Shown here piece by piece: positions 15,957 to 23,588 of a DNA stretch of 26,457 nucleotides. Location of the stretch: IMG/VR virus record IMGVR_UViG_3300042898_000564, positions 1 to 26,457 of that record; one strand, given 5' to 3'. The DNA comes from a virus. The notes below the pieces were generated by a model. That model was given only the letters and a program-made list of their open reading frames with translations. It ran no database searches and was not told the DNA's origin. The position numbers and the translations under genes are program-made. Every line of letters begins with the position of its first letter. The first letter of the stretch is position 1.

Positions 15957-16427
15957 CTATAAGTATATCTCTGTTTGTATATATACATCAGGCATAATCC
16001 ATGCTCGTCTAACTTCACGGGGATGATTTCCTCCTGGGTCTCTGAACGGATCTTTAAATTTACTTTTTTCAATTTTTAGTGTATTTAAAAAGTCTTTAAT
16101 TGTTTCTGATCCGGTATACTTTAATTTGTTTATCTTATACAGCGTTTCAAGAGAATCAATATTATTTTGTTTTAGCATGTTAGCAATTGATATTGCCATT
16201 TTAGGTGCACTGGGCCTATACAATTCTTTGCCGTCTCTTCTGCGTTGATCGAAAATTTTATAATATGTAGCTGGTAAAAAAGTTAATCTTAAATACTTTA
16301 TAACATCAGCTGACTTAGTAAATTCGTCTAAAAATGAATTATCATTTTCTTTTACTAATTTAGTAGATTCATTAATAGCGTTACGAACTTCAGTTTTAAT
16401 CAGGTTTCTTAATTCTTGTATTTTCAT
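15957..16427 (-). CDS. Tagged protein of unknown function, 156 aa
   Basis: The N-terminus MKIQELRNLIKTEV is the shared tag, ending in an INE/S site at residues 18-21 and followed by VKE at 25-27. The remainder has no family I recognise. It is mostly helical and basic (KYLRLTFLPATYYKIFDQRRRDGKELY; SIANMLKQNNIDSLETLYKI), with a Pro-rich basic stretch DPFRDPGGNHPREVRRAW near residues 124-142. There is no signal peptide or membrane segment. It stands alone between an octamer 50 bases upstream (16478-16485) and a strong terminator. A packaged virion protein is plausible if the tag is a targeting or maturation signal; that is inference. Confidence 0.75.
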   Translation of the reverse strand: MKIQELRNLIKTEVRNAINESTKLVKENDNSFLDEFTKSADVIKYLRLTFLPATYYKIFDQRRRDGKELYRPSAPKMAISIANMLKQNNIDSLETLYKINKLKYTGSETIKDFLNTLKIEKSKFKDPFRDPGGNHPREVRRAWIMPDVYIQTEIYL

Positions 16428-16493: not shown

Positions 16494-17030
16494 TTATAAA
16501 TCACCTGTTTTGCCCTTGAAAAGAATATCTGATTTCTTAAGGCCTTGTGTATTTAACCATTTACCTAATTCATAATTCATATTAGGTATAGGTTCATTTT
16601 CGTTACCGGGTGTTTTTAATTTAGGTAATAATACAGTATCTATAAACTGTTTTTCTATCGTATCATCTAATATAATAGATACTTCAGGATCTAATCTAAT
16701 TGCATCCCAAAATGGAGTCGTTAATTGTTTAAATTCTGAACCTTTAGGATTTTTTAGCTCATCGTTCGAAACTGTTTTACCTAATGCAAATAAAGCTGAT
16801 GCAACTGTTTTAATGTCTTTAATATTATCATATACATCTAATCCTTTTTGTATAATACTAATACCCGGCACTAATGACATTCCAAATTTACCTAATTTTT
16901 TTAATGAACTAACAGCGTCCTGTTCATTAGCCTTACCTACAATTACTTCAAATGCTTGTTTTACTTCGCCCCATGTAGGTTGCGTATCTTCTAATAAAAG
17001 TTGTTCTGCTATAGGTTTAAGCTTGATCAT
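16494..17030 (-). CDS. Unknown helical protein, 178 aa, with a different N-terminal peptide
   Basis: Not a family I recognise. The N-terminus MIKLKPIAEQLLLEDTQ is a short amphipathic, Leu-rich segment ending in LLED. It is not the common tag of its neighbours but has similar style and could be a second type of targeting peptide. A moderately hydrophobic Gly-containing stretch (GKFGMSLVPGISIIQKGL, about 47-64) and KTVASALFALGK (about 74-85) could associate with membranes or be a buried helix hairpin. The C-terminal half contains PFWDAIRLDPEVSIILDDTI and KWLNTQGLKKSDILFKG. It overlaps the upstream 113-residue gene by 14 bases, so it belongs to the ferritin transcript. Confidence 0.7.
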   Translation of the reverse strand: MIKLKPIAEQLLLEDTQPTWGEVKQAFEVIVGKANEQDAVSSLKKLGKFGMSLVPGISIIQKGLDVYDNIKDIKTVASALFALGKTVSNDELKNPKGSEFKQLTTPFWDAIRLDPEVSIILDDTIEKQFIDTVLLPKLKTPGNENEPIPNMNYELGKWLNTQGLKKSDILFKGKTGDL

Positions 17031-17358
17031 TTGAAGCTTGTTTTAATACACCTTTTAATTTACTAGCTATTTGAGTAAAGTCTTGTTCTGTAATACCAAA
17101 TGCAATTGCGACTGCGCCTAATAAAGCAACTCGTTGAGCATTATTTTTTAATGACTTAACAGCTGTCGGATCTTCAATTAAATCTATTACTTTAGCTCTG
17201 ATAGAACTGTCAATAGCTTTAATAGCCATATTTAAATTTTTAATGACTTGAGGATCTTGTATTTTATTACCGTCAGGTCCTACAGGAATAATATCTACTT
17301 CATTTAATGCAGATACAATTTCTTCTTTGATTAATTTTCTTAATTCAGATGTTTTCAT
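17017..17358 (-). CDS. Tagged protein of unknown function, 113 aa, downstream of ferritin
   Basis: Begins with the best tag of the set, MKTSELRKLIKEEI, running into ALNE at 17-20, an (L/I)xE site. After the tag: a Pro/Gly linker (VDIIPVGPDGNKIQDP), then two or three helices, including an Ala/Val-rich hydrophobic one (RVALLGAVAIAFGITEQDF, about 76-94). No known domain. The start codon abuts the ferritin stop (TAA immediately followed by ATG), so production should be coupled to ferritin, and the 178-residue gene overlaps its 3' end. If the tag marks virion cargo, this could be a partner or carrier for ferritin; nothing in the sequence proves that. Confidence 0.75.
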   Translation of the reverse strand: MKTSELRKLIKEEIVSALNEVDIIPVGPDGNKIQDPQVIKNLNMAIKAIDSSIRAKVIDLIEDPTAVKSLKNNAQRVALLGAVAIAFGITEQDFTQIASKLKGVLKQASNDQA

Positions 17359-17880
17359 TTAATTAAAATATGTTTGTTCAAAATATAATACTTCAAAGTT
17401 ATTTTCTACATTTACTAGCATTGCAGCATTTAATAGATCTGAATATTCAATTACAGACTCTGTTTGACCTTCTCTCAATTCACGTAAAAAATCAAATGTA
17501 GCTATATCAGAACTAAATAAATCTTGTGAGTCGTTATTATAAGCTTCGAACAAAGAATACTCTAAAGTATATGCTTTATTGACTATGTCGATTAGGTTAT
17601 CGAACGTAATATTAGGCTTAATCGATGGCAAAGTAGGGTATACATTCCAATCTACTAAATACTTTTGAACCTTTTCAGCATGGGTTAATTCATTAGCAGC
17701 TTCTTGTGCAAAGAATGCAGCTGCTTTTAAATATCCTTCACTAGCACACCAGTTATGTGCATTTCTGTAAAAGTAGTGAGCGGTATATTCGTCTTTTAAA
17801 CGATCAGTTAATTTTGAAACCGTATCTGATGATAATGTTTTTGGTGTTTTAATTTCAGATTGAGATACTTGCTTTATCAT
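17359..17880 (-). CDS. Ferritin-like iron-storage protein
   Basis: Four-helix-bundle ferritin expected to oxidise Fe(II) and store iron in a protein shell. It is 173 residues; bacterial ferritins are ~165. Ferroxidase-type residues fall at the right spacing: E31 with Y38 (helix A, DEYTAHYFY), E64 and H67 (helix B, ANELTHAEKVQKYL; 33 residues after E31, as in E. coli FtnA E17-E50/H53), E107 (helix C, YTLEYSLFEAY) and Q139/E141 (helix D, FLRELREGQTESV). The position matching FtnA E130 is Ser and E126 is Gly, so the third iron site is probably altered. A 15-20-residue N-terminal arm precedes helix A; it is not the common tag. It heads a transcript with the tagged 113- and 178-residue genes. A Dps-type assignment is disfavoured because the ligands lie within one bundle. 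Confidence 0.88.
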   Translation of the reverse strand: MIKQVSQSEIKTPKTLSSDTVSKLTDRLKDEYTAHYFYRNAHNWCASEGYLKAAAFFAQEAANELTHAEKVQKYLVDWNVYPTLPSIKPNITFDNLIDIVNKAYTLEYSLFEAYNNDSQDLFSSDIATFDFLRELREGQTESVIEYSDLLNAAMLVNVENNFEVLYFEQTYFN

Positions 17881-17954: not shown

Positions 17955-18188
17955 TTAATAACCTTCCGAGGCACCGGCATCTTTAATATCAATAATTAAA
18001 GAAGCTAATTCATTGTAATCAAATTCTCCTCCAGTTGTACCAAGATAATTTTCTAAAGCTATAACAGCTTCTTTAAATTCACCAGAAGGTTGAATTATTT
18101 TTAAAAGCTCACCTTCACTAAGTTGATTTTCGTTAACTGCTTTACGAACTTCAGTTCTGATCAAGTTTCGTAATTCTTGTAGTTTCAT
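17955..18188 (-). CDS. Small tagged acidic protein, 77 aa
   Basis: The first 20 residues are the shared tag (MKLQELRNLIRTEV, ending in AVNE), with a second (L/I)xE-Gly site, LSEG, at 23-26. The body of ~50 residues is acidic and helical (KEAVIALENYLGTTGGEFDYNELASLIIDIKD), ending DAGASEGY. No known domain. It lies between the homing endonuclease upstream and a terminator downstream, with its own octamer 18 bases before the ATG. The short body could mean it is a naturally small internal protein, or a remnant shortened when the endonuclease gene arrived next door; the clean promoter-like and terminator elements favour the first. Confidence 0.72.
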   Translation of the reverse strand: MKLQELRNLIRTEVRKAVNENQLSEGELLKIIQPSGEFKEAVIALENYLGTTGGEFDYNELASLIIDIKDAGASEGY

Positions 18189-18218: not shown

Positions 18219-19034
18219 CTATTTTAAAACGCCTATTAACTGTTCAATACATGCTAATCGATTATTAACTATATCATTTTCCCAGAATCGAATCAATTTA
18301 TAACCTTTAGATTCTGCTAATTGATTTTTTAACTTATCTAATCCTAAATTCTTTTTCTGAGTATTGTTTAAAGTATCTTCTGTATATTTGATAGGATTTG
18401 CATGCCAATAATCTCCGTCAATTTCTATTAATGTATTTATACTAGGTACATAAAAATCATATTCAAATCCATCTACATGATACTGATGAGTAAATTCTAC
18501 ATTTAATGATTCTAATATACTAGCAAATGTATATTCTAATTTCGATGGATTACCTTTTAAAATTTCTTTTCTATTACGAGCTAATGTTTCTAACAGTATT
18601 TTTTTATGCTCTTCTGACTTTGGCTTACCTTTTAATGCTTTTGATATCTTTGCTCGACGTTTAGGATCTGCAGCTGTAATTCGAATCTTTTCTAATTCTT
18701 CACCTTCATAAACTTTTCCTTTATTCCATTGAGATAATTCGCCGGATCCGAATCGTGTCTTTCTAGTCTCTCCTGATTTTTTAGCTCCTTTTTCAGAATA
18801 AAATCCTCCGTTCACTCTAGCTGCATGTCCTTGAATATACTCACCAAAACCAAATGTAGAAAAATAATTTAACTTTTCATTACAGCCGCATTTACATATA
18901 GGCCATTCTCCGTTATAATGTATATTAACATATGTTTGAGCACCGGAGATTTTGTGAGTTCTAGAATTGTGGTTTTGTAACCCTTTGTATGAATCGAATT
19001 CTCGATTACATTCTTTACACGTAAATTTGTCCAT
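18219..19034 (-). CDS. Free-standing EDxHD (VSR-fold) homing endonuclease with zinc finger and NUMOD3
   Basis: Probable selfish DNA endonuclease. Modules in order: a classical C2H2 zinc finger (C6, C9, H22, H27), a second Cys cluster CKCGC (47-51) followed by a GH at 69-70, a NUMOD3-type DNA-binding helix (RAKISKALKGKPKSEEHKK, 127-145), then a VSR/PD-(D/E)xK-like nuclease. In the nuclease, E167 (SKLEYTF), D193 (YDFYVP), H211 (IEIDGDYWH) and D233 (LDKLKN) follow the E-D-x-H-D spacing of the I-Bth0305I group. The end, GYKLIRFWENDI (244-255), is typical of VSR-like proteins. The gene lies between tail tube and a tagged gene with no intron visible, so it is free-standing, like T4 seg and mob genes. 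Its own octamer lies inside the terminator hairpin upstream. The alternative of a repair VSR enzyme is unlikely given the finger and NUMOD3. Confidence 0.85.
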   Translation of the reverse strand: MDKFTCKECNREFDSYKGLQNHNSRTHKISGAQTYVNIHYNGEWPICKCGCNEKLNYFSTFGFGEYIQGHAARVNGGFYSEKGAKKSGETRKTRFGSGELSQWNKGKVYEGEELEKIRITAADPKRRAKISKALKGKPKSEEHKKILLETLARNRKEILKGNPSKLEYTFASILESLNVEFTHQYHVDGFEYDFYVPSINTLIEIDGDYWHANPIKYTEDTLNNTQKKNLGLDKLKNQLAESKGYKLIRFWENDIVNNRLACIEQLIGVLK

Positions 19035-19124: not shown

Positions 19125-19613
19125 TTAAAATTGCAATATTGCGTAATCGTATTTCAACGTAAGAGTAATATTAATAGCATCCTCAGTTGAAAAATCAAAA
19201 TCTCCAAATTGAGCATCTCCAATATAAGCACCTTTTAAAGTCCATTCTTCAACTTTATCACCCACAGGTCCTAATGCATTGAAAGTAATGTCTTTCTTGT
19301 AAAAGTCAGAATAACCATCTCTACCAGTAACTGATTCATGTGATAAACGAATCCACTCCATTACTGCTTGTGCAGCTGAAGGAACTACTGGATCATATAA
19401 TGTAATAGATACATCATTCCAACGACCTTTTCCTTTTAATTTTCTTTCTACGTTGATATGATCTAAAATTACGTCACCGAAAGTAATGCTAGGACGATTA
19501 GCTGCTTTAATTAAATAAGAAGGAATTCCTTCAATGTACATTATAAATCTGTTAGCTACCTTTGGTTCAAAAGCGGTAAACATCACCTCACTTGGATCTA
19601 ATAATTCTGCCAT
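19125..19613 (-). CDS. 19: Tail tube protein, gp19 family
   Basis: Major subunit of the inner tail tube through which DNA passes. At 162 residues it is the same size as T4 gp19 (163). The gp19 fold is suggested by the N-terminal ANRFIMYIEGIPSYLIKAANRPS, the middle RWNDVSITLYDPVVPS and AVMEWIR, and the C-terminal strand pattern WTLKGAYIGDAQFGDFDF then INITLTLKYDYAIL. It is encoded two genes after the sheath, with two tagged genes between. A hairpin terminator follows the stop and an octamer lies 23 bases before the start, so this abundant protein appears to have its own transcript. Confidence 0.92.
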   Translation of the reverse strand: MAELLDPSEVMFTAFEPKVANRFIMYIEGIPSYLIKAANRPSITFGDVILDHINVERKLKGKGRWNDVSITLYDPVVPSAAQAVMEWIRLSHESVTGRDGYSDFYKKDITFNALGPVGDKVEEWTLKGAYIGDAQFGDFDFSTEDAINITLTLKYDYAILQF

Positions 19614-19650: not shown

Positions 19651-20403
19651 TTATTTTTTCTTATTTGCTTCTTTAATCTTAGACGAATTGTATTGTCTAA
19701 TACTTTCTGTTTTTGCAAATCTTCGTCCGCCGGCTTCTTTGATTTTAGTTCTCATTGCATTTGTAGATTCAACTACTTCACCTTTTGTTTTATCAAATTC
19801 ACCTTTTTTAATTAAACCATGAACTATAAAGTTTGTGCGTGGTTGTTTTGTTAAATACATTACTGTTTTGATTGCATCATTTTCATCATCAACATTATCA
19901 ACACCCCTAATGTATCTAAACTTGTATTGTTTTTTAGTTTTTTGATCTAATACAATATAACCATCATATTGTCTAGACATATCAGCTTCATTAACTACTG
20001 ACTCGCCCATGGATGCTTTTGCGTTATCATAAATTGACTGCAACCAGTCTTTAAATTGTCCTGGTTCTCCAGCCTTAGATAAATCATGATGTGTCTTTAT
20101 AAATTCAGTTACGAATGATTTAAAGTCTTTTGCTTCATGAGCCATTATGTCAATATCTGACATAGATGCTTCATTGATAGATTCATACATTCCAGATTGT
20201 CTTAGTTTTTGTCTAAATGCTGGAATTGATTCTGCCCAAGTTGTTACAGCTTCAACTGCACCTGAATTGTCTTCAAAGAAATCCATTACATCTGAATACC
20301 CTAATACTTCTACTAATTCTTCTAAACCAGAATCACCGCTGTATTCTTGTAATGTTTTCTTTATAGATTCTCTTATTAAATCTCTTAATATTTGTTCTTT
20401 CAT
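19651..20403 (-). CDS. Tagged polyprotein-like protein with several protease-type sites, 250 aa
   Basis: I chose the ATG at 20403, which gives the shared tag (MKEQILRDLIRESI...TLQE); an upstream in-frame ATG at 20451 would start inside the preceding gene and is rejected. The tag ends TLQE at 17-20. Further sites of the form (I/V)xE then a small residue occur at INE/A (76-79), VNE/A (137-140), VVE/S (210-213), IKE/A (221-224) and IKE/A (243-246). T4 prohead protease gp21 cuts after (L/I)xE, usually before Ala, Gly or Ser. Cutting would give pieces of about 58, 61, 73, 11, 22 and 5 residues. Two begin alike (ASMSD, ADMSR), and residues 140-210 look like a small beta domain (YDGYIVLDQKTKKQYKFRYI). 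No known family. It follows the 210-residue tagged gene by 4 bases. Confidence 0.75.
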   Translation of the reverse strand: MKEQILRDLIRESIKKTLQEYSGDSGLEELVEVLGYSDVMDFFEDNSGAVEAVTTWAESIPAFRQKLRQSGMYESINEASMSDIDIMAHEAKDFKSFVTEFIKTHHDLSKAGEPGQFKDWLQSIYDNAKASMGESVVNEADMSRQYDGYIVLDQKTKKQYKFRYIRGVDNVDDENDAIKTVMYLTKQPRTNFIVHGLIKKGEFDKTKGEVVESTNAMRTKIKEAGGRRFAKTESIRQYNSSKIKEANKKK

Positions 20404-20407
20404 CTTA

Positions 20408-21040
20408 TTATATTTTAGTTTGCATTGCCATAGATATGTCCTTAAGGTCATTTTTTAATGTATTTACATTGTATTGACCACCTGCGATAATTTCATAAAT
20501 TATCTTTATTTTTTTACTGTTCTTTTCAACAGACTGCGCATACTTTTTCATGTAATTATTTTTTTCTACTTGCTCAGCAAAGGCTTGCGTAAACTCATCA
20601 AATGATTTTGATTTGCATTGACTTGATAGGTCTTGAGCCGTTTGAGCGTTAAATACTTCAAAGAAATACTCTAATGCATTCTTCATGTCATATGTAGAAT
20701 CATTTAATTCTATTTTTGCTAAACCTGCGGCTCCATATACTAACATTCTAGCGCCTATATAAGGCAATAATTGAGTAGCTAATGCATACTTGGTTCTTCT
20801 AGGATAAATTTTTGAATATCCAATTGGAGATCCTATTACTGCATCTACATCAAACCATACTTTATAATGATCTTGTGGTCTAGAATTTTCCCATGCTCCG
20901 TCAGATAATTGACCTAAAATTTCAGCGTTAAATAAATTAAGCTGAGATTGGTTTTTAACAGTTAATGTACCGTACTTAACTTCCGTTAAAGCTTGTTTAA
21001 CCGATTCTTTTATTAAATTTTTTAATTCAAAAAGTTTCAT
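20408..21040 (-). CDS. Tagged protein of unknown function, 210 aa, after the sheath gene
   Basis: Starts with the shared tag MKLFELKNLIKESV ending in ALTE (17-20). The body contains a compact-looking domain: LNLFNAEILGQLSDGAWENS (34-53), then HYKVWFDVDAVIG, IGYSKIYPRRTKYALATQLLPYIG and a hydrophobic segment ARMLVYGAAGLAKIEL (about 97-112). The C-terminal ~70 residues are Lys/Gln-rich helices. The GQLSDGAWEN phrase looks like a conserved motif, but I cannot name the family. It begins a two-gene transcript with the polyprotein-like gene; a terminator lies upstream, after the sheath, and an octamer lies 17 bases before the ATG. Position between sheath and tube is unusual for non-tail genes. Confidence 0.75.
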   Translation of the reverse strand: MKLFELKNLIKESVKQALTEVKYGTLTVKNQSQLNLFNAEILGQLSDGAWENSRPQDHYKVWFDVDAVIGSPIGYSKIYPRRTKYALATQLLPYIGARMLVYGAAGLAKIELNDSTYDMKNALEYFFEVFNAQTAQDLSSQCKSKSFDEFTQAFAEQVEKNNYMKKYAQSVEKNSKKIKIIYEIIAGGQYNVNTLKNDLKDISMAMQTKI

Positions 21041-21122: not shown

Positions 21123-23588
21123 TTATTGACCGAAAGAAGCTCCGGTTGGGAGAATGTTAAAGTCAATAACAATAAATTCAGCAGTCTTAGTAGGTTGTAA
21201 AAAGATTTGACCATACATAATATTCCTGTCAATCAAGTCAGGAGTGTTATTAGTTTCATCCATTACTACTTTGAAAGCATATAATCCTTGTCTTTGTTGA
21301 ATAGACTCTAAATAAGGGTTAACAATATTTAAGAATCTGTTTCTAGTAGCAGCGGTATTTTGTTCAAATACTAAGTATTTAGTAGCTGATGCAATATACT
21401 TTTTAACTGCAATTAAAAGACGACGTACATTGATTCTATCTAATGCACTTGGCTTAGCTTGTAATGTCTTTTGACCCCAAACAGCAACACCTACACCTGG
21501 GAAGGTAGCAATTGGGTTAACACGACCATCATATAAATCATCTCTCTCAGCGTGAGTTAATCTAGAATAAACATCTGTTACTGAAGTTAATCCACCTCTG
21601 TTTAATCCTGCAGGTGCATACCATTCAGCTGATACTTTATCATTAAATGCTAATACTCCTGGAATAACTACTGAAGGTGGTACCCATGTTGGTTTATTTG
21701 CATTGGTATCCATAATTTTCACCCATGGATAATAAGTAGCTGCATAATTATTGTCTACTGCACTAACTGCATTGGTAGCGGTAGTAATATTATCTGTAAT
21801 ACTTGTATTATCATATATTAAGAAAGCATCGCCTCTATCTAATACCATTGAACTTGCATAGTCAATTACCGAAGGATGTAATGTATATATTACACCTGGC
21901 ATTGCTACTAAATTAAAATCGTATTCATCTGGATTAGATAAAACATCAATGGCATCTTTATATACTGAAAATCCTGCAGCAGAAGTAGATGATAAATCAA
22001 ATCCTTGTGTATTTGCAGCAACGATTTCAGAACCAACTAAAGATCTTCTATTAGGTTGAATTCCATCAGCTCCACCTTGGAACGGAACAACAAACTTACG
22101 AGTTTCAATTGAAGTATTCGAAGTTAAATCAACTGAACCAGAATAAGCTATAGCAGTTGTAGGATAACCTGCATTTGCTGATTGATTATAACTAGATAAT
22201 AAGAAAGTTGTATTTACACCTGTTGTAGAACTTACTACCGGAATAGGTTTCAAATAGTTCCAGTTATCATTAGTTGTTAATGAATAATCAAATCCAAATG
22301 CAACTCTTTTATTGTAAAGACCATTTACATCTTGTGAAGTTACAAATGTAGCAGCAGGAACGTTACTTACCGTCGACGGTAATGAATTGTACAATGCAGC
22401 ATGACCAAAAGGAACTAATTCAGAAGAATAAACTCCTTTGTCTACATTAGAATCCATTTCTACATAAACATATTTAGATTTGTTTGAATAGTTACCATTA
22501 ATAATTACTTTACCATTAGAGAATGTTTTGTATCTGTCTCCAATTACACGAGCAATGTATCTAGGTGAATTAGGATCTAAGTTAACATTATCATATGATT
22601 CTAATACATTTGGTCTATTATCTGAATCTTGAGAAGTAAATGGAGAACCTAATAACTGCAATTTGGTTTGGTCAACAGCTCTAATTGTTACTGAGAATGA
22701 ACCATACTCTGAACCAGCTACCGATCCTGCAGGTTTAATATTTGATACAATTGCTTTAACTTCATAGTTAGAATAAACACCATCTGCGATAGTATGTAAT
22801 TTAAACAAGTTAAAGTTAGTGTTGTTAACTGTTTGTGAAATAACCCAAGGAGTAGTAGCTTCTTTATAAGCTTCTCTAAAGTCTAAATCAACAGTTGTTA
22901 ATGACATTGATACAAATGTAGTAGCAGACCCAGAATACATTTGAGCTGCTCTAGTTTCAAACATATTGTATAAATACACAGGATCTTTTGTAGATTGTGC
23001 TTTTAATCCTAATGACTTAGCAATGTAATTTGTAGCGCTAGGATTTAATGATGCAGATACATATGTACTTATAAAATTTGAAGTACCAGGGAATGTAGCA
23101 GAATCAACTGTAAATACTCCAGATACAATTAAATTTGCAACACCTGAGCTAGTTGATACAGTATCTACAGTTGATAAACTAAATAAATTAGTTGTACCAT
23201 TGTAGAAAGCTGTTGTTTCTGATAAAATTTGTGAAGGATGTAGAAGAGCAACTAATGAACTTGTTACAGCTCCATTAGAACCTGAATAGGTAGCAGATAA
23301 AGCAACTACTTTACTTACTTTGTAACCATCATCTGGTAATGTTCTTACTACTGTTAATTGACCTGAATTTGCTAAATACTCTTTTGCAGCGTATGGCAAA
23401 TAATAATTCGGATTGGTATCACCGAAAACTTGTGTGAATTCACCAAAGGAACTTACTGTGGTTGGTACACCTGCCGGGCCTTTAACTGTAGGACCAATAA
23501 ACGCAGCACCAATCGCAGCAATTCCTTGTGGTAAATAAGATAAGTCTTTTTCTTCGGTAAATACACCTGGGGATACTAGTTTTTCCAT
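21123..23588 (-). CDS. 18: Tail sheath protein, gp18 family
   Basis: Contractile sheath subunit that drives the tube through the host envelope. The N-terminus SPGVFTEEKDLS (6-17) is the classic sheath start, followed by AAFIGPTVKGPAGVPTTV and LPYAAKEYLANSGQLTVVR. The conserved C-terminal domain has NPIATFPGVGVAVWGQKTL, RINVRRLLIAVKKYI and KYLVFEQNTAATRNRFL. The length of 821 residues is well above T4 gp18 (659); the extra length lies in Ser/Thr/Asn-rich, beta-type middle domains (about 120-480), which are normally surface-exposed. A terminator follows and an octamer lies 34 bases upstream, so it is a single-gene transcript. Confidence 0.95.
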   Translation of the reverse strand: MEKLVSPGVFTEEKDLSYLPQGIAAIGAAFIGPTVKGPAGVPTTVSSFGEFTQVFGDTNPNYYLPYAAKEYLANSGQLTVVRTLPDDGYKVSKVVALSATYSGSNGAVTSSLVALLHPSQILSETTAFYNGTTNLFSLSTVDTVSTSSGVANLIVSGVFTVDSATFPGTSNFISTYVSASLNPSATNYIAKSLGLKAQSTKDPVYLYNMFETRAAQMYSGSATTFVSMSLTTVDLDFREAYKEATTPWVISQTVNNTNFNLFKLHTIADGVYSNYEVKAIVSNIKPAGSVAGSEYGSFSVTIRAVDQTKLQLLGSPFTSQDSDNRPNVLESYDNVNLDPNSPRYIARVIGDRYKTFSNGKVIINGNYSNKSKYVYVEMDSNVDKGVYSSELVPFGHAALYNSLPSTVSNVPAATFVTSQDVNGLYNKRVAFGFDYSLTTNDNWNYLKPIPVVSSTTGVNTTFLLSSYNQSANAGYPTTAIAYSGSVDLTSNTSIETRKFVVPFQGGADGIQPNRRSLVGSEIVAANTQGFDLSSTSAAGFSVYKDAIDVLSNPDEYDFNLVAMPGVIYTLHPSVIDYASSMVLDRGDAFLIYDNTSITDNITTATNAVSAVDNNYAATYYPWVKIMDTNANKPTWVPPSVVIPGVLAFNDKVSAEWYAPAGLNRGGLTSVTDVYSRLTHAERDDLYDGRVNPIATFPGVGVAVWGQKTLQAKPSALDRINVRRLLIAVKKYIASATKYLVFEQNTAATRNRFLNIVNPYLESIQQRQGLYAFKVVMDETNNTPDLIDRNIMYGQIFLQPTKTAEFIVIDFNILPTGASFGQ

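Follow-up and report, generated by a model that had tools for sequence, protein, structure and literature searches.

Several described phage systems share elements with the locus studied here. The T4 internal proteins IPI, IPII, IPIII and Alt are small, variable and poorly conserved, and carry a short tag with a prohead-protease site. Their tags are removed by gp21, for which the cleavage motif L/I-X-E is given, and their poor conservation may reflect an arms race with host restriction (PMC9026906). The T4 proteins gp22, gp67 and gp68 are each made as a single precursor with several gp21-type sites (PMC9026906), and in head proteins of phiKZ and SPN3US the prohead protease cuts one protein at several xxE sites, as found by mass spectrometry for SPN3US (PMC9026906, PMC5694885, PMC10052503). 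Polyvalent proteins are mosaic multidomain proteins that are thought to be injected with the phage DNA, and the authors who described them draw a comparison with the polyproteins of RNA viruses (PMC5512222).

Here, we analyzed a protein encoded in the window, i.e., the whole stretch of DNA studied, which is an entire viral record of 26,457 bases and represents a 26 kb fragment of a T4-like contractile phage. We consider it likely that this protein is a capsid-targeted polyprotein, which the prohead protease would cut in trans into small internal proteins; the cleavage as well as the payload role are inferred. While T4 has one cargo per tag, a single tag is here followed by several modules that are separated by sites and swapped between proteins, and this variability and swapping resemble the T4 internal proteins. 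gp22, gp67 and gp68 are conserved core parts that are mostly expelled, whereas the modules here are mobile and apparently folded, and the gene is optional. In phiKZ and SPN3US, the extra cuts dispose of a propeptide and leave a single mature protein (PMC9026906, PMC5694885, PMC10052503). Release from polyvalent proteins is ascribed to embedded peptidase domains (PMC5512222), but none was found here, and cutting is predicted to be done at a recurring linker by the prohead protease, a separate protein. Polyvalent proteins also combine at least two disparate, mostly enzymatic known domains, and the window protein has no known domain. Each element of the arrangement is already known, namely the capsid-targeting sequence (CTS), gp21-type cuts, multiply cut head proteins and mosaic injected proteins (PMC9026906, PMC5694885, PMC10052503, PMC5512222). 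Searches of mainly open-access journal articles gave no account of a tagged chain in which exchangeable modules are joined by linkers for the prohead protease.

A tagged gene between the sheath and tube genes

The plus strand of positions 19651 to 20403 is full of stops, and translation of the minus strand gave an ORF of 250 aa (Table 1). An in-frame ATG further upstream would extend the product to 266 aa; the start at 20403 was preferred, since the tag begins at that ATG and the close homologues in L003 and L084 both start there. On the minus strand, the gene order is sheath, a tagged ORF, the precursor gene and the gp19-like tube. The earlier note had reported this location and regarded it as odd for a precursor cut inside the head. 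The location was confirmed, and the oddness was resolved by a comparison with relatives. Of 112 related loci, 81 have the sheath gene next to the tube gene (gap of <300 bp) and 31 have inserts between the two, with tagged ORFs in 17 of these 31, and we therefore regard the gap as a place where tagged cargo genes insert. A tail-protein function, considered on the basis of position, was rejected because insertions into this interval are optional and the tag is common to many small ORFs.

Table 1. Features of the precursor gene and of its tail and tagged neighbours in the window
Feature	Coordinates	Strand	Evidence
Tail sheath	21123..23588	minus	PF04984 1e-15, phrog_23 6e-66
Upstream neighbour with the same tag (MKLFELKNLIKESVKQALTE)	20408..21040	minus	Tag pattern
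Precursor gene, 250 aa + stop	19651..20403	minus	ORF, translation; homologues in L003 and L084, 83% identity
N-terminal tag, residues 1-20 (MKEQILRDLIRESIKKTLQE), predicted capsid-targeting propeptide, predicted cut after LQE20	20344..20403	minus	Tag type on 5 window ORFs and 57 related-locus proteins
Segment 1, residues 21-78, 6.5 kDa, pI 4.1	20170..20343	minus	56/58 residues identical in L003
Linker ESINE/A, residues 74-78, predicted cut after E78	20170..20184	minus	Glu kept in 17/19 contexts; low model confidence at 71-76
Segment 2, residues 79-139, mobile 'MSDID' module, 6.8 kDa	19987..20169	minus	Copies in L085 and L089, diverged copies; three-helix model, pLDDT 71
Linker ESVVNE/A, residues 134-139, predicted cut after E139	19987..20004	minus	Fits recurrent ES(V)V(T/N)E/A; low model confidence at 133-142
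Segment 3, residues 140-223, basic, predicted strand-strand-helix-strand at 146-199	19735..19986	minus	52/84 residues identical in L003; model
Basic C-terminal tail, residues 224-250, with IKE245/A	19654..19734	minus	Mostly low model confidence
Tail tube, gp19-like	19125..19613	minus	phrog_4542 2e-24; PF06841 4.5e-6, just under the curated cut-off
Tagged ORF (MKLQELRNLIRTEVRKAVNE)	17955..18188	minus	Tag pattern
Tagged ORF (MKTSELRKLIKEEIVSALNE)	17017..17358	minus	Tag pattern
Tagged ORF (MKIQELRNLIKTEVRNAINE)	15957..16427	minus	Tag pattern

The N-terminal stretch MKEQILRDLIRESIKKTLQE belongs to the tag type MKxSELRxLIREEVRKxLNE, which a pattern search placed on 5 ORFs of the window. Across the related sheath and tube loci, 57 nonredundant proteins carried the tag and 1,023 did not. 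With a search pattern that fixes the Glu and admits L, I, V, M, A or Y at P3, this position was L in 43 of the tagged proteins, I in 8, M in 4 and V in 2, i.e., the tag ended in LxE in 43/57 and in [LIMV]xE in 57/57. A short tag with a protease-site end is in this way common to several cargo genes, as for T4-type internal proteins with a CTS, and it would presumably direct their packaging. Internal sites were mostly without excess in the tagged proteins (24 in the 57 proteins versus 16.5 ± 4.0 after shuffling); the exceptions, rich in internal sites, were the window protein, its L003 homologue and the L056 protein. The last of these (L056:12448-13575, 375 aa) carries the tag, the module of segment 2 and then a second tag-like stretch (LTEMIRAEIKKVLKE), as if two tagged genes had been fused.

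Two untabulated minus-strand ORFs were also noted in this cluster of tail and tagged genes. Positions 17359-17880 encode an untagged ferritin-like protein (PF00210, 2e-18). The 271-aa ORF at 18219-19034, which adjoins tagged genes, has a Cys-rich N-terminus and a nuclease-like C-terminal half and, judged from a reading of the ORF, looks like a free-standing homing-type endonuclease.

Candidate cut sites and a mobile module

All six xxE sites listed in the earlier note were present in the minus-strand translation (LQE20-Y, INE78-A, VNE139-A, VVE212-S, IKE223-A and IKE245-A), and its three main site-to-site intervals span 58 to 84 residues. Segment 3 would comprise residues 140-212 if VVE212 were cut. 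Residues 21-250 contain 5 matches to [IVL].E[AGS], compared with a shuffled mean of 0.72, and at least 5 such sites were reached in 0.04% of 20,000 shuffles of the protein; the pattern was picked after the protein had been seen, which makes this p-value soft when taken alone, and it is therefore the evidence from homologues that carries the case. The other 24 window proteins had 23 such sites in total, corresponding to 0.77 per 250 aa.

Direct searches with the window protein found no homologues in the phage collection or in the viral contigs. Homologues were reached through a search with the neighbouring sheath, followed by an alignment of the module from the window, L003 and L056. Among them were the two close homologues in L003 and L084, found in the sheath and module searches, in which E20, E78, E139, E223 and E245 stand in a fitting context (IKE223/A and IKE245/A appear in L003 as IRE/A and IKE/A), while VVE212-S is replaced by VSE-Q. 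Since 22/23 Glu are kept in the close homologues, site conservation in L003 was discarded as a test.

The module alignment found 14 viral loci, and profile searches showed that the 61-residue segment 79-139 recurs in otherwise unlike phage proteins of 156 to 1,337 aa. It was the only segment for which relatives beyond L003 and L084 were found; for segment 1, the fetched loci held none besides these two. The module ends exactly at E78 and E139, and an equal 61-residue unit, running from linker to linker, is found in L085 and L089. A Glu directly precedes the module in 17/19 distinct upstream contexts, the two without it being L270 and L276/L309. These contexts include INE/A, ITE/A, VTE/A, VNE/A, FNE/G, INE/G, LHE/S, TKE/S, VNE/S, VIE/S, ITE/S, LLE/G, ITE/G and LKE/S, among others, and the Glu is retained where the remaining linker has diverged (LHE/S, LTKE/S, ITE/S, LLE/G). 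When 18 module copies were aligned, with L270 and L276/L309 left out, the invariant residues were E78, I84, F97 and Y125 only. Conservation of the sites in homologues, which had been proposed earlier as a check, was thus borne out for E78 by the contexts before the module and for E139 as a module boundary. For E223 and E245, which are kept in the 83% homologues only, it says little, and the change to VSE-Q leaves E212 weak.

The starts of two predicted fragments (ASMSD and ADMSR) had also been pointed out as similar. They are alike in their letters, but profile and relative searches found no homology between segments 2 and 3 (79-139 and 140-223); the likeness may reflect a P1'-P4' preference only, or chance.

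The full-length structure model was poor (mean pLDDT 59). Its units were helices at 27-69, a better unit at 78-132 and a strand-strand-helix-strand arrangement at 146-199. Confidence was low for residues 71-76, 133-142 and the greater part of 213-247, as well as within segment 1 (17-53). When modelled alone, module 79-139 formed three helices (pLDDT 71). The models predict that the segments are mostly separate folded units. Pfam, NCBIfam and fold searches gave no match assigning a function to any segment; fold searches of PDB and BFVD gave no match with an E value below 0.001, and the PDB sequence search gave nothing convincingly similar. The best BFVD match to the module (E 0.14, probability 1.00, with 27% identity in 55 aligned columns) was a 436-aa uncultured-phage protein that is uncharacterised and is probably another module carrier. 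Weak GIY-YIG-like matches of the full model were set aside in view of its pLDDT.

Linker-joined polyproteins and the prohead protease in related phages

Many of the module carriers are strings of modules joined by an ES-x-(V/I/L)-(T/N)-E/(A/G/S) linker. In nine carriers (eight from the module-alignment search plus L056 from the sheath search), the parts outside tag and module contained 23 ES-linkers versus 0.6 after shuffling, and 56 versus 17.4 matches to [IVL].E[AGS]. A DNA pattern for ESVV(T)EA matched at least 120 stretches in viral contigs; among the 120 viral matches listed, 113 had an ORF bearing ESVV(T/N)EA, and 88 had at least two linkers in that ORF. The same pattern matched 20 stretches in 257 Gb of cellular genomes, one of them with at least two linkers. 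Over all loci, 140 ORFs with at least two linkers were reduced to 84 by removal of near-duplicates, and 83 were used, with the window counted once. These 83 polyproteins contain 318 ES-linkers at a median spacing of 82 aa. With a linker pattern that restricts P3 and P2 and leaves P1' free, P3 was V in 239, I in 49 and L in 30, P2 was T in 158 and N in 115, and P1' was A in 181, G in 47 and S in 27.

Of 1,851 unique breakpoints in alignments between different polyproteins, 275 lay within 5 aa of a linker, compared with 122.5 ± 9.8 for circularly shifted linkers (275 was reached in 0/1,000 trials); this enrichment of HSP ends may partly be an artefact, as a conserved linker can let alignments end there. 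Cutting at the linkers gave 390 modules in 211 families. Sixty-five families occurred in at least two proteins, 57 of them with differing neighbours, a count that depends on the linker pattern, since families with differing linkers are cut too long (families 2 and 9). Insertion and replacement of modules at linkers distinguish the polyproteins of L086 and L087: they are 98% identical over 672 residues, after which L087 has 51 extra residues, from NES to NES, followed by a shared module (94% over the block), an unrelated next module up to the linker and then ~100% identity. In L256 and L260, shared modules stand in a different order. The polyproteins of L087, L091, L252 and L256 and the module protein of L246 had no match in the phage collection, and what was recognised in the related polyproteins was DUF5856 and DUF5824 above the Pfam cut-off, a cytidyltransferase PHROG and little else.

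A CTS-like N-terminus, defined by a loose pattern, was only modestly commoner in linker proteins (47/67) than in their linker-less neighbours (199/444). Neighbours of the related polyproteins bear MKHIKLYEEFVNE/A-type N-termini resembling the T4 tag. In L085, L087 and L091 (e.g., L091:10680-14206), runs of small adjacent genes each start with such a T4-like tag, and these runs include a P-loop kinase-like protein (match to AAA_33 and Zeta_toxin) and, by reading, HAD-like ORFs. They constitute a large set of candidate capsid-internal proteins.

The T4-type prohead protease family (gp21, S77) was found above cut-off in 13/23 records of the sheath, tube and module relatives and in 14/20 linker-polyprotein records, compared with 0/14 control genomes. 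gp23 was likewise found in 13/23 records of the sheath, tube and module relatives, and the module, S77 and gp23 are all present in the 186-kb record from which L094 comes. In L190 and L195, the modular protein is encoded directly downstream of the S77 protease. A reading of the ORF lists of the 26 kb window did not reveal a recognisable protease or capsid gene.

The major capsid proteins (MCPs) of the relatives served to judge whether the sites have the P1-Glu motif of substrates of this protease. In 14 MCPs, from related records and two isolates (the differing MCP of L184 was left out), the cut position was placed by homology to T4 gp23. The predicted propeptide end was Q(L/I)(V/I)(T/S/K/D)E/(A/S), with one protein having E for Q; P3 was V in 11 and I in 3, P1 was E in all 14, and P1' was A in 13 and S in 1. 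The P3-P1' positions of the linker (V/I/L, T/N, E, A/G/S) and most window sites match this predicted end, and the P1-Glu motif is thus shared. The earlier note had equated (I/V)xE with the T4 gp21 preference; V at P3 lies outside the T4 motif L/I-X-E, but predominates among the relatives' capsid proteins (11/14).

Among 14 linker-polyprotein records with S77, 11 (G025, G027, G030-G032, G034-G036, G040, G041 and G043) have the S77 match within a larger ORF (578-831 aa), and the record of L200 has it within one of 662 aa. In these ORFs, the protease is apparently fused to an extended acidic portion that is scaffold-like and contains many xxE sites. In Microcystis phage Mel-JY01, a ribosomal protein S21 gene (L082:10198-10425) and an ORF that by reading is ADP-ribosyltransferase-like (L082:10444-11610) stand beside the prohead protease.

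Proposed processing in the prohead and its alternatives

In the process that we propose, the 20-residue tag would function as capsid-targeting sequences do in T4 and direct a single chain to the core of the prohead. Cleavage after Glu20, Glu78 and Glu139 would follow, carried out by the S77 prohead protease of the phage itself, which would also trim the capsid protein; further cuts would be made probably at 223 and 245 in the basic tail and perhaps at 212. The cuts would remove the tag and free at least three small proteins, i.e., residues 21-78 (6.5 kDa), 79-139 (6.8 kDa) and 140-223 (9-10 kDa). These would most likely stay with the DNA and, as with the internal proteins of T4, enter the host by ejection, where they might act as effectors; structural roles in the core are also possible. 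Relatives string up to ~ten modules together and exchange them at the linkers. Predicted cleavage at E20, E78 and E139 is strongly favoured by conservation, by the module boundaries at the sites and by the agreement with the MCP motif. The claim that the precursor is cut inside the head at several Glu-Ala sites is thus well supported by sequence for these three; E223 and E245 are less supported candidates, and E212-S is a weakly supported one.

The analogy drawn earlier to T4 gp22, gp67 and gp68 would make the protein a component of the prohead core or scaffold, which shapes the core and is then cut and expelled, its sites serving to clear the head. In L190 and L195, modular relatives follow immediately after the protease gene, where T4 has its core genes, which would agree with this. 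gp22, gp67 and gp68 are indeed cut to multiple fragments (PMC9026906). The core is, however, conserved head machinery, and the gap holding this gene is empty in 81/112 relatives; instead of a conserved head-cluster gene giving many short peptides, which marks the T4 core type, we found diverse, swapped modules that are predicted to be folded units. We consider a core protein unlikely, and the analogy fits less well than one to T4 internal proteins strung together, given the predicted folded units and the swapping of cassettes.

Exchange of modules at linkers would also follow from linker homology by itself if the protein were an uncut multidomain virion or injected protein, with ES-V-T/N-E-A as a flexible linker kept as a recombination site for domain shuffling, and some injected multidomain proteins are described as transferred or packaged unprocessed (PMC5512222). 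A mere linker would need neither Glu at P1, V/I at P3, nor a match to the predicted capsid motif, yet the Glu is kept in contexts as diverged as LHE/S, LTKE/S, ITE/S and LLE/G, and we judge an uncut protein slightly less probable still than a core protein. Removal of the tag only, by one cut after E20, with the internal matches arising by chance in a Glu-rich, Lys-rich protein, appears very improbable: the shuffles, the Glu in 17/19 contexts and the module boundaries at both sites outweigh the mostly ordinary internal site numbers of tagged relatives and the small count of 5 sites obtained with a pattern chosen after the fact.

The capsid-targeted polyprotein might belong to a widespread cassette system of tailed phages, in which one tag would serve up to ~ten proteins per chain, the prohead protease would release them and modules would be swapped at the protease linker; we give this wider reading a little better than an even chance. 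If true, several separate proteins could be brought into the virus head by a single gene. The internal proteins of T4 are known singly, with one tag each, and a module chain would show multi-protein delivery along with fast exchange, as a DNA-phage counterpart of RNA-virus polyproteins for delivering several proteins to bacteria. For many unannotated 'hypothetical' phage proteins, the set of mature products could then be predicted, and the linker would allow searches for further internal proteins, possibly with counter-defence roles.

The idea is testable now in cultured Kyanoviridae, which have mosaic proteins with at least one shared module. S-CAM9 gp160, S-T4 gp187 and S-B64 gp085 have the DHEVSMAQ...IPAW module in common with the L190 protein, although the ES-V-T/N-E-A linker is mostly not conserved in them. 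In the Synechococcus phages S-CAM9 (L363:2225-4315, 696 aa) and S-T4 (L364:2228-3727, 499 aa), the mosaic proteins end in DUF6321 and have piecewise matches to 13-14 PHROG families each; the order of their DHEVSMAQ...IPAW and EGLRDWFGKSK modules is reversed between the two proteins.
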